From Deltaproteobacteria bacterium (lineage in GTDB: Bacteria > Desulfobacterota > RBG-13-43-22): DNA of 32,896 bases. Location: assembly GCA_016219225.1 (NCBI GenBank), contig JACRBX010000032.1:1-32896 (forward strand), read 5' to 3'. The notes beneath the pieces are model-generated. The model saw nothing but the letters and a program-made list of their open reading frames with translations. It had not been told where the DNA came from and made no database searches. Numbering within the stretch: position 1 is the stretch's first letter; each line of letters opens with the position of its first letter. This document shows, one piece after another, positions 20,347 to 32,078 of this stretch. Both the position numbers and the translations under genes were made by a program.

Positions 20347-20924
20347 TGATCCGGATTAATTTGTTAGCCGCCCATGAGGTCCGAAAAGGGAAGGGACGGT
20401 TCAGGCTGTTTCAGGGTATCGTTCTGATTTATGGACTCCTGATAACAGCCTTCCTTCTGGGATATTGGAAGTTAGGGGTCGAAGTCCAAACCCTCAAGGA
20501 AGAAAAAGGGGTTTTAGTAAAACAAACGCAGGCTGCTGCAACCCTCCAGAAAGAAATCAAAGAGCTTAAGGAAAAAAAAGAAACGGCCCAAACCAGGCTG
20601 GATCTGCTTCAAAATCTGGAAAAAGAGCGGCATGGCCCGGTTCGTCTGATGGAAGTTCTTTCAACCATACTGCCGGTCAACCAGCTCTGGCTGATCAGTT
20701 TGCGGGAAACCGGTTCCGAAGTCCGGATAGATGGGATGTCCTTCAGTAACGAGACCCTGGCCGAGTACATGAGACGTCTTCAAAACGCACCCTTCGTGAG
20801 TCAGGTCGATTTGGTTCAATCCACCCAGGCCAATTATAAGGATTTAAAAGTAAAACAATTCACCCTGACCGCCCGGCTGAAATCTCCGGCTCCGCCAGGT
20901 GAGAATACTGTCGAGAAAAAATGA
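20346..20924 (+). CDS. pilN: type IV pilus assembly protein PilN
   Basis: Bitopic inner-membrane protein that pairs with PilO. It begins with the conserved PilM-binding motif MIRINLLAAHE, followed by one membrane helix (about residues 20-43), a Lys/Glu-rich coiled coil (about 45-95) and a small ferredoxin-like periplasmic domain ('LWLISLRETGSEVRIDGMSF...'). 192 residues, a normal length. The start codon overlaps the pilM stop by one base. The next gene, pilO, begins 7 nt after the stop. Confidence 0.93.
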   Translation: MIRINLLAAHEVRKGKGRFRLFQGIVLIYGLLITAFLLGYWKLGVEVQTLKEEKGVLVKQTQAAATLQKEIKELKEKKETAQTRLDLLQNLEKERHGPVRLMEVLSTILPVNQLWLISLRETGSEVRIDGMSFSNETLAEYMRRLQNAPFVSQVDLVQSTQANYKDLKVKQFTLTARLKSPAPPGENTVEKK

Positions 20925-20931
20925 GGGGCCG

Positions 20932-21549
20932 ATGAATCCCTTACCGGACATCACAGACCGTCTGACCCAGCTCCCCCTGGCCCAAAAAATATTACTGGCG
21001 GTTTTGGGGATGGTTCTTTTAGGAGCGGTTCTGGGATTTTTCCTGCTTAGACCCCGTTGGGAAGAATCAAAAGCCCTCCAGGGAGAGATCGACCGGGAAA
21101 AAATCAAATTAGCCCAAATTATCCGGACCCGGAGCCAGATTGCCCGTTTCAAACAAGAGCTGGCTGAAATGGATGTCCGATATAAAGTGATCCTGAATAT
21201 GTTACCGGAAGCCAAAGAAATCCCTCTCCTGCTTAAAACCGTTTCCAACCTGGGTCAACAGCAAGGACTGGAATTTCTTCTTTTTAAACCGGAAAAGGAA
21301 AACCCCAGAGAATTTGTGGCGGAAATCCCGATCACCATACATATCAAAGGGACTTATCATGAGATCGGAATATTTTTTGACCGTCTCCGGCGGCTGCCCC
21401 GGATTATTAATGTGAAACAACTGGAGTTAGGGGCCTTTGAGGAAAAGACCGGCCGCATTAATGCCCGCTGTCAGATAACCACTTTTCGGGTCTTGCCCCT
21501 TCCGCCGCCATCCCCGACACCGGCAGCGAAGGCTGAAAAGAAAAAATAA
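20932..21549 (+). CDS. pilO: type IV pilus assembly protein PilO
   Basis: Partner of PilN in the periplasmic ring that links the platform to PilP and PilQ. 205 residues: a short cytoplasmic part, a membrane helix (about residues 18-40), a coiled coil (about 45-85) and the PilO core with 'IHIKGTYHEIGIFFDRLRRLPRIINV' type sequence (split here into IHIKGTYHEIGIFF and RLRRLPRIINV). The C-terminus is Pro/Lys rich. ATG 20932 with GAGGGG just before it is chosen; an in-frame start at 20899 would overlap pilN without need. Confidence 0.93.
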   Translation: MNPLPDITDRLTQLPLAQKILLAVLGMVLLGAVLGFFLLRPRWEESKALQGEIDREKIKLAQIIRTRSQIARFKQELAEMDVRYKVILNMLPEAKEIPLLLKTVSNLGQQQGLEFLLFKPEKENPREFVAEIPITIHIKGTYHEIGIFFDRLRRLPRIINVKQLELGAFEEKTGRINARCQITTFRVLPLPPPSPTPAAKAEKKK

Positions 21550-25744: not shown

Positions 25745-26431
25745 TCAACTTTCCCCGGCCGACACCAGGGGAGCGGGTATGAATAGGTGGTTATTTTTTT
25801 TGAAGGCATCGGTTAATTCCGAAAACCCTCCGACATGGAGGGCGGCGGTCAACTCTTCATTTTTATAAGCTACTAAAGGCACCCCGGCACTCAAGGCGGT
25901 TTGGGCATCCACTTCCGAATCCCCGATAAAAAGGCACTCTTCGGGGCCGACCTTAAAATAGGACATGATTTTATAAATCGATTCCGGATCCGGTTTCGGT
26001 CGATCCACATCCAAGGCACTGACCACCAGATCAAACCAGGGGTCTAAGGAGAAAAGGGTCAATACCGGGCCGATGGTGGTTGTCCGATTGGTGGAAATGG
26101 CGGTCTTGGCCCAGGGACGGATAAAAGCCAGAAAGTCAAGAAGTCCCGGTTCCATTTCCATCATGCGGAAAAAAGAAGTATAATCCAAATTCTGTCGATA
26201 AAGATCAACTTGGTCTCGGAGAGAACCATCCCGAAACAAAAATTCAACCGATTCCGTGACCGTATGCATATGCACATAATGCAAAGCGGCTTCGGTCAGG
26301 GGGGGCTTTCCAAAGTGCGTTAACAGCTGATTATAGAAAAATTGATTGGACTTTCGGGAGTCAAAGAGCACTCCGTCGCAATCAAATATGATCACCTGCA
26401 CTGGTGTAAGGAAACTCAGGGGCATGTCCAT
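25745..26431 (-). CDS. HAD-superfamily hydrolase (phosphoglycolate phosphatase-like)
   Basis: A 228-residue phosphatase of the haloacid dehalogenase superfamily. Motif I is 'FDCDGVLFDS' with nucleophile D17 and acid/base D19; motif II 'ISTNRT' has its Thr/Ser; motif III is 'RPKPDPE'; motif IV 'FIGDSEVD' holds the Mg-binding acids. The helical cap at about residues 25-90 fits subfamily I. Small phosphate esters such as phosphoglycolate or sugar phosphates are likely substrates, but the exact one cannot be read. ATG 26431 lies inside the downstream half of the DUF1573 frame if that frame is read through its TGA (50-nt overlap). Confidence 0.82.
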   Translation of the reverse strand: MDMPLSFLTPVQVIIFDCDGVLFDSRKSNQFFYNQLLTHFGKPPLTEAALHYVHMHTVTESVEFLFRDGSLRDQVDLYRQNLDYTSFFRMMEMEPGLLDFLAFIRPWAKTAISTNRTTTIGPVLTLFSLDPWFDLVVSALDVDRPKPDPESIYKIMSYFKVGPEECLFIGDSEVDAQTALSAGVPLVAYKNEELTAALHVGGFSELTDAFKKNNHLFIPAPLVSAGES

Positions 26432-26810
26432 AAAAACGTATACGCATTTCCGGGTTTTTGGGGTCGTTGCTCAAGACGGTCAGGATTCTTTCAAATTTTC
26501 CATTTAAGCGGTTAGGCTCCAGTTCCACCACTATTTCACCCTGACCGCCGGCCGGGATGTACGGATCCCACCGTACCAGATTGGTGCCTCAGGTAAATTT
26601 AATCTTGGAGATATAGAGGGAGGAATCCCCGAAATTTTTAACGACGATGCTTCGTATGACCGATTTGGGGGGTACCAGCTCCCCGACATTTAAAGAAGTC
26701 GGATTCAAAAAAATCGAGGGTTCTGAACTCCTCACTTCTCCGGCCCTTAGGGAACTCCCCAAGGTCATCAGACAGATAAATCCGCTTATTAACAGAATCC
26801 GCTTAACCAT
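26382..26810 (-). CDS. DUF1573 protein, candidate selenoprotein (in-frame TGA at codon 74)
   Basis: Read from ATG 26810 the frame meets TGA at 26591-26589 after 73 codons, then stays open and homologous to the next stop at 26384-26382. The result is 142 residues if TGA encodes selenocysteine. A signal peptide (about residues 1-24) precedes one DUF1573 (ASH-like beta) domain: 'VGELVPP', 'VVKNFGDSSLYISKIKFT', then TGA, then 'GTNLVRWDPYIPAGGQGEI' and 'ILTVLSNDPKNPE'. Family members normally have Cys-Gly-Cys at the TGA position. A hairpin fitting the bacterial SECIS rule follows. If the TGA is a true stop, the product is a truncated half-domain (26589-26810). It starts 73 bp past the qrcD stop. 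No strong ribosome binding site is visible. Confidence 0.6.
26559..26591 (-). promoter_or_regulatory. candidate bacterial SECIS element after the in-frame TGA
   Basis: On the minus strand TGA (26591-26589) is followed by 12 nt, then a perfect 6-bp stem GTACGG/CCGTAC (26576-26571 with 26564-26559) closing a 6-nt loop TGGGAT. The loop begins 18 nt after the TGA and has G at its second position, within the published limits for bacterial SECIS hairpins (loop 16-37 nt from UGA, G among its first two bases). The hairpin lies inside coding sequence, as bacterial SECIS elements do. Confidence 0.5.
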
Positions 26811-26883: not shown

Positions 26884-28131
26884 TTATCCATTCAGTTCCC
26901 TCTCCTGCGGAAAGACCGGCAGGTAACGATAGGACAGGGAGATAATCAGGGCGCCGTAGGCCAGGATGGACAAGGAGGATCCCCATTCCTGCCAACTGGG
27001 CCAGTAGGTCACAAAGCGGTCGAAGGGCATCACCGGCAGGGCCAGGGAGACCACGGTAAAGACAAAGCGGTTAAAGACCACCCCGCTGCAGGCAAGCAGG
27101 CAGGCCAGGGTCAACCAGCCGGGATGCATCCGTATTTTCCGGTTTAGCAGCATGAGGGCCGGGAGGATACCGAAAACCCCTAATTCGGCCACCACCAGCC
27201 AGAATCCATAAGGCGATCGATACTGTTCCCAAAAGCCCATCCCCCGGGCCGGCAGGATCGAGGCCGCCCAATAAACCGTATCGGCCAATTTCAGAACAAG
27301 ATAAACGATCAGTAACCGGCCGGCGATCTTGCCCATCAGGGCCAGTATGTCTTGCCGGACTAATTGCCGGCCGGTCCATTTCTGGACCAGAGAAGTGATT
27401 AATACCGTAAAGGCCGGGCCGGAGGCGATGGCCGAGGCGATAAACAGAAAAAAGGTCCAGGGCCAGATAAATATCCCTTCCCGGAAGGCAAAAGGCCGGG
27501 CAAACATAACCCCGAACATGCCCCCCAGGGAGCCTTGATGGAAAAAGGATAAAAAGGTCCCGGTAGCGGCAAAGATAAACATCAGATCATGGAGGTTGTG
27601 GGCGAAATAATGGGCCCCCGGGTTGGCGTTGATTTTCCGGTTTTCCAATACCAGGGGCAGGTATTCGATCATCAGGACCCCGAGATAGAGGGTAATGCAG
27701 AACATCACCTCGGTCAGCATGGAATGGATATTCGGGTGCCAGAACCCGTACCAGGCCCGCAAAGGCTGCCCTATATCCAGGTTCAGGATGAGAATAGCCC
27801 CGCTATAGCAGACAAAACCGATAATAACCGCAAAATTGATAATGGCCTTGAGTTCCTGTTTGCGCCAGATATAGAACAGGAAGCCGGTAAAAAAGGCCCC
27901 GGCCCCAAGGGCAATGATGGACAGATCAAAGGTGATCCACAAGGCAAACCCGAAATAATCATTCATATTGGTCTGATTCAAACCCTTCCAGAGGATCAGC
28001 ACAGCGGCCACCAGCCCCCATCCCAATATCAGGAGCAGGAAGACAATCCACAGGGAAAATTTAAGCAGGGAACACCGGGGCAAACCTTCAGGAATGATCG
28101 GGCTGTCCTTGGAAATCACGATTTGGTCCAT
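26884..28131 (-). CDS. qrcD: NrfD/PsrC-family membrane subunit, Qrc-type
   Basis: A 415-residue integral membrane protein with about ten hydrophobic helices, the size of NrfD-like quinone-interacting subunits. After a polar N-terminus (about 25 residues), helix 1 starts near 'FSLWIVFLLLILGWGL'. Conserved-type features include 'RAWYGFWHPNIHSMLTEVMF' and 'HNLHDLMFIFAATGTFLSFFHQ', rich in His near the membrane faces. In the Qrc complex this subunit binds menaquinone and takes electrons from the FeS protein. The start ATG 28131 has AGAGGT upstream, at the very tail of repeat R7. The gene order cytochrome-molybdopterin-FeS-NrfD identifies the complex; two repeat copies separate it from qrcC. Confidence 0.85.
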   Translation of the reverse strand: MDQIVISKDSPIIPEGLPRCSLLKFSLWIVFLLLILGWGLVAAVLILWKGLNQTNMNDYFGFALWITFDLSIIALGAGAFFTGFLFYIWRKQELKAIINFAVIIGFVCYSGAILILNLDIGQPLRAWYGFWHPNIHSMLTEVMFCITLYLGVLMIEYLPLVLENRKINANPGAHYFAHNLHDLMFIFAATGTFLSFFHQGSLGGMFGVMFARPFAFREGIFIWPWTFFLFIASAIASGPAFTVLITSLVQKWTGRQLVRQDILALMGKIAGRLLIVYLVLKLADTVYWAASILPARGMGFWEQYRSPYGFWLVVAELGVFGILPALMLLNRKIRMHPGWLTLACLLACSGVVFNRFVFTVVSLALPVMPFDRFVTYWPSWQEWGSSLSILAYGALIISLSYRYLPVFPQERELNG

Positions 28132-28280: not shown

Positions 28281-28378
28281 GCTTCGTTTGAAAATACAGT
28301 TGCACGATGCAAGTTGCAAGTTTCAGCCTGAAAAACCTTAAACCTTAAACCCTGGATCTTGGACCTATTTTCATGAAG
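28281..28378 (-). repeat. modular heptamer repeat, copy R8
   Basis: On the minus strand: head CTTCATGAAAATAGGTCCAA, in which TGA is the stop codon of qrcC, then 7-mers of GGTTTAA type (two) and CTTG-type units, ending CTGTATTTTCAAAC. It is placed head-to-tail with R7 between qrcC and qrcD. Confidence 0.75.
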
Positions 28379-29138
28379 CCTTTCTGGCCACTTCTTCTTT
28401 TAAGACATTATCCCCCTGGCGACGGACCCAGTCCTGGGTAGACAGGTAATAAACCTTGGGCTCGCTCCCTAATTTTTCCAGGAGCCGAAAGGCCTTTGGA
28501 CTTTTTTTCAGTTTGGCGACCTGACTTTGAGGGTCCTTAAGGTTACCGAAGGCGATGGCTTTGGTCGGGCAGGCCTCGGTGCAGGCCGTGATGTATTCGC
28601 TTTCTTTGAGGTCCCGCCGGTCTTCCATATAGGCCCGATCCTTAGCCCGTTGATAGCGATGGTTGCAAAAGGTACATTTACTGACTACCCCGCGCATGGC
28701 CACGGAGATATCGGGATTCAAATAATTCTCCAGTCCTTTGGGAAAGACCGGGTCCCACCAATTGAAATAGCGGACATGATAAGGACAGGCGGCCATACAA
28801 TACCGGCAGCCGATGCAGCGGGAATAGATCTGGCTGACAATACCTTTTTCATCCATTTGCGTGGCCGTGACCGGACAGACCGAGACACAAGGGGTATGAT
28901 GCTGACAGTGCATACAGGGCCTGGGCAGGTAAACCACCCGGGTCCTGGGATAGGGCTGCCCGTTGCTCAGGCGGTAGAGCCGCATCCAGGTGGCGGACTT
29001 CAGTTTATCCGTCTCATCATACCGGAAGGCCAGGTTGTTTTCAGCCATACAAGCCACGGCACAGGCCCCGCATCCGATGCATTTATCCAGGTCAATGACC
29101 ATGCCATACAATTCTTTTCCCCCTGAGGACTTTTTCAT
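28371..29138 (-). CDS. qrcC: 4Fe-4S ferredoxin-type subunit, Qrc-type
   Basis: A 255-residue electron-transfer subunit with 16 cysteines in four clusters: 'CIGCGACAVAC' near residue 20, 'CMHCQHHTPCVSVC' near 75, 'CIGCRYCMAAC' near 105, and the split set 'CTFC' ... 'CTEAC' (about 150-190). This is the four-cluster layout of DmsB/PsrB/QrcC proteins that pass electrons between the molybdopterin-family subunit and the membrane subunit. No Tat signal is present, so it would be exported by piggy-back on the Tat-bearing partner. ATG 29138 is the only sensible start. The stop codon is shared with the head of repeat R8. Confidence 0.88.
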   Translation of the reverse strand: MKKSSGGKELYGMVIDLDKCIGCGACAVACMAENNLAFRYDETDKLKSATWMRLYRLSNGQPYPRTRVVYLPRPCMHCQHHTPCVSVCPVTATQMDEKGIVSQIYSRCIGCRYCMAACPYHVRYFNWWDPVFPKGLENYLNPDISVAMRGVVSKCTFCNHRYQRAKDRAYMEDRRDLKESEYITACTEACPTKAIAFGNLKDPQSQVAKLKKSPKAFRLLEKLGSEPKVYYLSTQDWVRRQGDNVLKEEVARKAS

Positions 29139-29205: not shown

Positions 29206-31494
29206 TCAGACCTTCACAATCTTTACCCGGGTGGCCCAAGCCACTTCCATACCGGTCTGGGGATCCACCACGCTATCCAGGATGGGATAAGGATTGGCTC
29301 CCCGGTCTTTGAGGGTGGGGTCAAAGGCCTTGTGTCCCATTCCAAGGGGGACAAAGACACATCCGGGCCTGGCCCCTTCAAAGAGATGGATCAGGGCCTT
29401 GATCCGGCCGTTGGCCGATTGGATCTCAACCGGGCTCCCTTCCGACAAAGAAAGAGATCGGGCCGTCTCCGGATGGATTTGTACGACCAGGGTGTTCTTT
29501 ATTAAAACCTCTTCCCCCAGGTATTTGGTAAGAAAAGGGGGATTAGGAAGATATCCTGATTGGAGCAGCATCAGGGACTGGGGGATCAACCAGAGAGGAT
29601 ATTCTTTTAGAGATTGGGGCCTGGGTGCCGGGGCCTGAAGGGTGGCGGCGGAAAAATCCCATTTGCCCTTCCCTCCTTCGGACTTGTTTTCCAGGTCATA
29701 CCAGGTGCCCTGGGCCACTAATTGTTCCCAGAATTTATCGAAGGATTCAAAATGGGCCGGAGCATACTTCCCGGCCTCCGGCAGCGGGCCGTCGGTCAGG
29801 CGGCCCTTCTTGGAATTAAACAGGCCCCTGGCCGCCTGTTTGAAGACCTCTTCTATTTTTTCAAATGGAAAAGCTTCCTCGACCTTCTCACCCAGATTTT
29901 TGGCCAGGGCCAGAATGGTCTCCCCGCTCGATTTAGTGTCATAAAGGGGAGGGAAAACCGGTTTGGTCAAACCATAGATCGGAAAAGGCACTCCCTGGCA
30001 GTTATAGCTATCATCCCAGCGTTCCAGAAAGTTGGAAACCGGCAGTATCAGGTCGGCCAGATTGGCGGTCTCATCCATAAAAGAAGAAAAACAGACGACA
30101 AAAGGGATCTTTTCCAAGGCCCGGAGAAAATGCCTTTCTCCCAAACAAAAAACCGGATTGACCTCGTTGAGAAAAAGGAGATTAACCGGATAAGGGGTTT
30201 TTCGGGCGGCATTTTCAAAGAGATTACAGGCCAGATTGCCGGTCTTGGGGTATTTGGGGGACATAGCCCCGTCCAGCCGGGGTTGGGCCAGACCCTTTTC
30301 GGCTGTTTTATCTAAGGAGAGTTTCGGCCAGGAAATGTATGGGAATCCGGGCTGCAAATAGACCCCGCCCGGCCTGTTGATCGAACCGGCTAAGATATTC
30401 AGGATATGTATGGCCTGAGCCTCAAACAAACTGATGGGCAATTCCCCCTTGCCCTTGCCCCAAAGGGCCACCGGCTGTTCGGCCGAGGAGAAGTCCTGAG
30501 CCAGTTTTTCAATGGTTTCCTTGGGAATCTCAGTTGTTTTGGCCGTCTGGTCAGGGGTATAATTCTTATTTAACAGATCCCTCAAGCCCTCCAGTCCGAT
30601 AGTCCTGGCCTGGACCAGTTCTTTGTGAAACCAGCCTTTCTCGATCATCACCTGGGCCAACCCGAGGGCCAGTATCCCTTCCGTTCCCGGCCTTATGGCC
30701 ACCCATTCGTCAGCCATAGAGGCCGTTGTCGAAGCCAGGGGTTCAATTTGGACCAGTCTGGCCTTTGCCTTCTGGGATTCCTGTCGCCATTCCTGAAAAG
30801 CCTGACCCACCCAGGAGGGATTCCCCCAGCCATCGAGCAAGGCAGCACCGAAACTCAAGATATAGCGGGACCGGGGAAGGTCGAGGGTTATCCCGGCCCG
30901 GACCCCGTGTAGGGTTTGGGTAACTATTTCTTCCAGCTCGCTTAACTGGAAGGGACGGATATAATTAGGAGAGCCGTAGGCCTTTAAAAACCGGGCCAGC
31001 AGTTGACTTTGACTTCCTGGTTTTTCGCCATCCACCAGGGCAACTGTGTGGGGGAGGTCTTTTTCTCTTAATTCCTTTAACCTGACTGTTATTTGATATA
31101 AGGCCTCTTCCCAGGTAATGGGTCTCCAGTCCCCAAATCCCCTGGCTCCGTCCCGTTTCAAGGGGGTTTTAATACGGTTCTCTTCATAATACAGATATTG
31201 AAGACCGGCCAGGCCTAAAGGGCAGAGGCCGCCCCGATTGACCGGATGGTTGGGGTTACCTTCGATCTTGACGGCCCTTTTCTGTTCGATCAGTCTGATA
31301 CGGATCCCGCACCCCCCGGGGCAGAGTCTGCACACGGAATTAAGAAAGGAAGTCCCCCCTCTTTGAAGGACCGGGCCCCAGCGCTGGGTCCATTTGGCCG
31401 CTTCGTCCATGGAAACCCAGGGCAAAGGGGTGAGCATGGTTCCTACCGCCCCACCGACCGCGAATTTCAAAAAATCCCTTCGATCAATCGCCAT
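29206..31494 (-). CDS. qrcB: molybdopterin oxidoreductase-family subunit, Qrc-type
   Basis: A 762-residue periplasmic protein of the DMSO-reductase family. It starts with a Tat signal (RRDFLK at residues 5-10). A 4Fe-4S site follows, C55-x2-C58-x3-C62-x28-C91. The rest shows the family's domains II-IV, e.g. 'WRPITWEEAL' (about 122), 'GNLACNLFENA', 'FLNEVNPVF', 'LPVSNFLERWDDSYNCQG', and the C-terminal beta-barrel 'VVQIHPETARSLSLSEGSPV'. No Cys, Ser or Sec clearly placed as molybdenum ligand was found in the segment after residue 165. This agrees with QrcB, which is reported to lack the metal cofactor. It sits between the cytochrome and FeS genes. A Psr/Phs-type reductase is the main alternative. 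Confidence 0.85.
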   Translation of the reverse strand: MAIDRRDFLKFAVGGAVGTMLTPLPWVSMDEAAKWTQRWGPVLQRGGTSFLNSVCRLCPGGCGIRIRLIEQKRAVKIEGNPNHPVNRGGLCPLGLAGLQYLYYEENRIKTPLKRDGARGFGDWRPITWEEALYQITVRLKELREKDLPHTVALVDGEKPGSQSQLLARFLKAYGSPNYIRPFQLSELEEIVTQTLHGVRAGITLDLPRSRYILSFGAALLDGWGNPSWVGQAFQEWRQESQKAKARLVQIEPLASTTASMADEWVAIRPGTEGILALGLAQVMIEKGWFHKELVQARTIGLEGLRDLLNKNYTPDQTAKTTEIPKETIEKLAQDFSSAEQPVALWGKGKGELPISLFEAQAIHILNILAGSINRPGGVYLQPGFPYISWPKLSLDKTAEKGLAQPRLDGAMSPKYPKTGNLACNLFENAARKTPYPVNLLFLNEVNPVFCLGERHFLRALEKIPFVVCFSSFMDETANLADLILPVSNFLERWDDSYNCQGVPFPIYGLTKPVFPPLYDTKSSGETILALAKNLGEKVEEAFPFEKIEEVFKQAARGLFNSKKGRLTDGPLPEAGKYAPAHFESFDKFWEQLVAQGTWYDLENKSEGGKGKWDFSAATLQAPAPRPQSLKEYPLWLIPQSLMLLQSGYLPNPPFLTKYLGEEVLIKNTLVVQIHPETARSLSLSEGSPVEIQSANGRIKALIHLFEGARPGCVFVPLGMGHKAFDPTLKDRGANPYPILDSVVDPQTGMEVAWATRVKIVKV

Positions 31495-31541: not shown

Positions 31542-32078
31542 TTACTTATGACAAACAAAACAGGCGTTGCTTATCCCCTTTTTTTCATGACAGGTTTCGC
31601 AGGTTTTCATCGTCATGGCTTCCGGGGCATATCCGGAAATCCATTTATAGCGATAGGTCGGATTTTTATCGGTCTTGCCGCCTACGGACTGATGACAGGT
31701 CTTGCATTCTATTTTGGCCATCTTAATGTGGGCGATGTGAGAGAAAAAGACGTGATCGGGTTGTTTGGAATAAATGTGCCAGGCCAGACCCCTTTTTATA
31801 AGATCTTGTTCCTCTTCGGTTATCTCCAATCCGCCATGGCATTCCAGACACTTGGTTATAGGCGGTATGCCGGCGAACGTGCCGTCAGGCTTAAAAAAAT
31901 GGCAGTCTTCGCATTTTAAGGTGGCCTCTTCCCCATGCTTCAGGTGACTGAACCGGACCGGTTGTTCTTGCGCAACCTGAATTATCTTTGGAAAAGCAAC
32001 CCAACCCAAACTTAAGGAAGCGATCAGCCCGATCCCAAAAAATAACCATTTGCCCCTGGTCTTGCCCTCTTTTTCCAT
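31542..32078 (-). CDS. qrcA: membrane-anchored multihaem cytochrome c, QrcA-like
   Basis: A 178-residue cytochrome with an N-terminal membrane anchor (about residues 10-30) and five CxxCH haem sites at 56-60, 77-81, 125-129, 160-164 and 173-177. His pairs such as 'FSHLKHG' (44-50) and 'FFSHIAHIK' (111-119) are likely distal ligands, a class III/c7-like pattern. In Qrc this subunit accepts electrons from soluble type I cytochrome c3. Desulfovibrio QrcA is described with six haems; only five canonical motifs are found here. First gene of the operon; the next, qrcB, follows after 47 bp. ATG 32078 has only a weak ribosome binding site. Confidence 0.82.
   Translation of the reverse strand: MEKEGKTRGKWLFFGIGLIASLSLGWVAFPKIIQVAQEQPVRFSHLKHGEEATLKCEDCHFFKPDGTFAGIPPITKCLECHGGLEITEEEQDLIKRGLAWHIYSKQPDHVFFSHIAHIKMAKIECKTCHQSVGGKTDKNPTYRYKWISGYAPEAMTMKTCETCHEKKGISNACFVCHK

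Follow-up and report, generated by a model that had tools for sequence, protein, structure and literature searches.

The window, that is, the whole stretch of 32,896 nt analysed here, carries on its minus strand the four genes of a QrcABCD-type menaquinone reductase, followed by a short DUF1573 gene and a gene for a HAD hydrolase. The Qrc genes lie upstream of the DUF1573 gene and all four scored above the cut-offs of their NCBIfam models: qrcA for the multihaem cytochrome c subunit (31542-32078; NF041781, 185.5 bits, cut-off 180), qrcB for the molybdopterin-binding-like subunit (29206-31494; NF041783, 462.6 bits, cut-off 440), qrcC for the iron-sulfur subunit (28371-29138; NF041782, 412.4 bits, cut-off 400) and qrcD for the integral membrane NrfD-like subunit (26884-28131; NF041784, 650.8 bits, cut-off 570). 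The adjoining quinone reductase operon that had been recognized in a sequence-only reading of this DNA can thus be named qrcABCD. The HAD gene (25745-26431; PF13419, 85.6 bits) shares a 50-bp overlap with the 3' end of the DUF1573 gene. Within this overlap (26382-26431), the stop TGA of the DUF1573 gene is located inside the HAD codons for the catalytic motif FDCDG, and the overlapping HAD gene may fix the DUF1573 stop as TGA.

The DUF1573 gene (26382-26810, minus strand) starts with ATG at 26810, and its final TGA at 26384-26382 was taken as the stop. Its frame is interrupted by one TGA at codon 74 (26589-26591) and then continues for 68 further sense codons, with no second internal stop and no frameshift, giving a predicted product of 142 residues with selenocysteine (Sec) at position 74. 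The match to PF07610 covers residues 38-122 (26445-26699) and spans the TGA, and its score of 39.4 bits (cut-off 26.1) places the protein in the DUF1573 family. The sequence-only reading had reported this interrupted frame with the same coordinates, which stand; the strand, which it did not name, is minus. Judged by eye from the translation, the N-terminus (MVKRILLISGFICLMTLGSSLRA; 26742-26810) is a probable cleaved signal peptide, and similar hydrophobic N-termini are found in the orthologues, so that the protein is probably exported. The AlphaFold2 model (pLDDT 87.9) is an Ig-like sandwich, and the nearest solved folds found by Foldseek (2qsv, HYDIN, CEP192 and PapD-like chaperones) also support an Ig/ASH/PapD-like beta-sandwich for the domain, while a PDB sequence search with the protein returned nothing useful. 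In this model, residue 74 sits in a beta-hairpin turn, flanked by strands 65-72 and 76-81. In the homologue alignment, codon 74 occupies the column of the first Cys of the Cys-Gly-Cys motif of DUF1573 proteins, as had been proposed. The second Cys of that motif, whose loss was overlooked in the sequence-only reading, is replaced by Thr in this gene, giving the motif U-G-T. The predicted mature protein has no Cys at all, and Sec would be its only chalcogen residue besides Met.

The TGA is conserved. In the genome to which the window belongs (G000; 5.9 Mb in 353 contigs), all three DUF1573 genes contain exactly one TGA at the same column. The third of them (L002; G000:C274, near 20766-21092) has the motif UGC and a sequence that departs from its relatives; its frame stops short close to the end of the contig and may be truncated. 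The order and class searches gave an identical set of five genomes, in which one TGA was found in nine of the ten DUF1573 matches; the remaining match is a 933-residue multidomain protein without TGA. Orthologues of the window gene in three other genomes of two genera (L026, L024 and L025) carry TGA at the same codon; the relatives with names are Deltaproteobacteria bacterium RBG_13_43_22, NC_groundwater_1644 and Thermodesulfobacteriota Prado115. A wider scan of genome contigs found no relatives beyond these three, and a scan of viral contigs found no relatives. The phylum search gave many more DUF1573 matches with one TGA. Among the better-scoring matches we read 66 TGA loci and 52 Cys loci: the TGA stands at the first Cys of the CGC motif in all 66, and the Cys loci share this column. 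Thus, the alignment of homologues that had been suggested as a check shows TGA or Cys at exactly this position.

We also compared substitution patterns on both sides of the TGA. By Nei-Gojobori counts, dN/dS between the window and L026 was 0.46 before the TGA and 0.19 after it, and between L024 and L025 it was 0.21 before and 0.07 after. In both pairs the part downstream of the TGA is more constrained than the part upstream, and dN/dS after the TGA is 0.07-0.20 in the subfamily of the window. The codons downstream are translated and are under strong purifying selection. These results bear on a fresh nonsense mutation (TGC or TGT to TGA) in a decaying gene, which had been named as the alternative. 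It would fit a frame that is open but for one TGA, the additional loss of the second Cys and the fact that G004, a genome of the same genus, gave no DUF1573 match. This explanation fails because the TGA is common to the orthologues of two genera; moreover, the frame has gained no further stop or frameshift, the downstream codons are constrained, and the same column holds TGA in 62 more loci. We rejected it as highly improbable.

With regard to the machinery for Sec incorporation, selA (628 bits), selB (390 bits) and selD (394 bits) were all found above cut-offs in the same genome, and its selD is itself Sec-containing, with an in-frame TGA in GARAAGUASKL followed by a hairpin. The search for the Sec machinery suggested in the sequence-only reading was thus answered in full for these three genes and in part for selC. 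The gene for tRNA-Sec is intact in three relatives (G001, G002 and G003), whereas our assembly contains only its 3' 66 nt, identical to G003 (contig C145:159-224; L028 and L192). The piece has a foreign 5' side and resembles the attachment site of an integrated element. The 3' fragment would be accounted for by integration into the tRNA-Sec gene if the intact copy fell into a gap of the assembly. ARAGORN found no tRNA-Sec around selA and selB of this genome, the Rfam tRNA-Sec model gave nothing informative or above cut-off in it, and G004 had no match to the tRNA-Sec pattern. The open and constrained frame after the TGA would also be expected if TGA were translated as some other amino acid, or if read-through were general, with no selenium involved. 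This idea was likewise rejected, with as little probability left to it as to a nonsense mutation, since the TGA is confined to the Cys column and the genome has a dedicated Sec machinery with a Sec codon in its own selD.

A hairpin just downstream of the TGA, with a small apical loop containing G, is characteristic of bacterial SECIS elements (PMC1088965). The hairpin GTACGG-TGGGAT-CCGTAC pointed out earlier is indeed present at such a distance, on the minus strand at 26576-26559, where it begins 12 nt after the TGA and has a 6-bp stem and a G in the loop. Its support comes from the family level and is modest for the window alone. Over the 33 nt downstream, at similar G+C in both groups, the median hairpin energy was -10.1 kcal/mol in the 66 TGA loci against -6.4 in the 52 Cys loci (p 6e-8), and the median longest stem was 7 bp against 4 bp (p 4e-10). 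Relatedness among the sequences makes these p values smaller than they should be, but the contrast between TGA and Cys loci is still clear. Compared with synonymous-codon shuffles, the mean z was -1.41 in the TGA loci, all 66 of them being negative, and -0.27 in the Cys loci. The window hairpin by itself was not significant (z -1.05, with 14% of shuffles as low), and another structure was preferred when 60 nt were folded. One stem pair is compensatory, A-T in the window and G-C in L024 and L025. The Rfam model SECIS_1 (RF00031) gave no match, whether in the whole genome or close to the gene, and it was silent in all 14 control genomes as well. Taken with the conserved TGA column, the Sec machinery and the purifying selection after the TGA, the family-level hairpin bears out the earlier proposal of a Sec-containing protein. 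From these comparisons of sequences, we put the probability that codon 74 encodes Sec in a real selenoprotein gene at about 94%.

DUF1573 selenoproteins, also called OS_HP2, were reportedly first found in a symbiont of Olavius algarvensis. The features shared with this family are the DUF1573 domain, Sec at the first Cys column, the downstream hairpin and the occurrence in Desulfobacterota. DUF1573 has been listed as a selenoprotein family with the motif UGC from the Olavius symbiont study (PMC9312934; PMC13188914), and OS_HP2 has been described as pfam07610 with the motif UxC (PMC2398784). The subfamily of the window differs in that the second Cys is replaced in all four members, with UGT in the window and UGS and USM among the orthologues, so that none has UxC. 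On the other hand, the TGA members that we read outside this subfamily all keep the second Cys, as UGC or, in L001, as UAC. L001 (L001:1429-2133) also has a very strong hairpin with an 8-bp stem and lies downstream of a multihaem cytochrome c gene. The NCBIfam model for the OS_HP2 (seleno)protein, NF041425, gave 51.5 bits for the window and 52-55 for its orthologues, below the cut-off of 100, whereas the UGC members tested, including one of the same class, scored 100-126 bits. As the phylum tree has few columns for its number of rows (105 for 118), we relied only on the clade formed by the four subfamily members, which stands on a long branch with an SH-aLRT of 99. We therefore regard the window gene as a divergent, clade-specific form of OS_HP2, in which Sec has been kept and the partner Cys lost. 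Since our census was made from the better-scoring matches, there may be weaker DUF1573 members elsewhere that also lack the second Cys. Whereas Sec in DUF1573 was known before, two features seem to be new, the missing partner Cys and the setting beside qrcABCD.

The gene neighbourhood offers two candidate partners. A qrcD-type gene precedes the DUF1573 gene in the window, L024, L025 and L070; L070 is the same place as L026. The DUF1573 genes of L024 and L025, like that of the window, are neighbours of an NrfD-type gene and a HAD gene, and L070 has qrcB, qrcC, qrcD and HAD genes. In L070 (RBG_13_43_22), an insert of about 1.5 kb between qrcD and the DUF1573 gene (L070:4440-6000) contains small minus-strand frames resembling a toxin-antitoxin pair. 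The flanks read around the other DUF1573 genes examined contained no Qrc genes, so the link with Qrc could be incidental. Moreover, a HAD homologue of 42-50% identity stands beside a UGC Sec DUF1573 gene in six other genera (L172, L178, L180, L181, L182 and L185). These pairs resemble the window in the order of a Sec DUF1573 gene and then a HAD gene, but they keep the partner Cys and have no Qrc genes in the flanks read. The HAD gene, which the sequence-only reading passed over, is thus the more widely conserved neighbour of DUF1573, and because this pairing recurs elsewhere in the phylum, a role specific to Qrc is uncertain. DUF1573 is not among the four named subunits of the menaquinone reductase of sulfate reducers, and no library model ties it to Qrc.

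Accordingly, there is about an even chance that the protein is a selenoprotein whose working partner is found elsewhere, for example in the product of the paired HAD gene, the nearness of qrcABCD in this class being incidental. The HAD pairs in the six other genera and the insert that parts qrcD from the DUF1573 gene in L070 agree with such a partner. It is hard to picture a direct joint action, however, when the HAD protein looks cytosolic, with no signal seen by eye, and the DUF1573 protein exported, and the 50-bp overlap may mean co-expression alone. A Qrc-linked function of the DUF1573 protein is the less likely case, possible but rather less likely than not. Its fuller version, a Qrc-associated one-selenol Ig/PapD-like periplasmic protein that acts on the menaquinone reductase or helps to assemble it, is slightly less likely still.

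For the Sec reading of codon 74 itself, we favour the following mechanism. SelB carrying Sec-tRNA-Sec would bind the hairpin 12 nt downstream, and TGA 74 would be read as Sec. The mature protein would consist of one Ig/PapD-like domain that has its Sec placed in a beta-hairpin turn and lacks any Cys. Instead of an internal Se-S bond, the selenol of Sec74 would enter a short-lived selenenylsulfide with a partner protein or a small thiol, or would bind a metal or haem. Most likely, the product works as a periplasmic Ig/PapD-like protein through a single selenol, and we infer a redox or assembly factor of this one-selenol type, for which the adjoining QrcABCD may be the client.

Finally, genes interrupted by TGA in this way will be split or dropped by gene callers, and the curated family model NF041425 misses the variant that lacks the second Cys. 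Our census indicates that Sec is common in the DUF1573 proteins of Desulfobacterota and always at one site. Retention of Sec without the partner Cys separates two ideas on its action, namely an internal Se-S pair and a lone selenol working on a partner. For this domain of unknown function, the HAD and Qrc neighbourhoods supply partners that can be tested.
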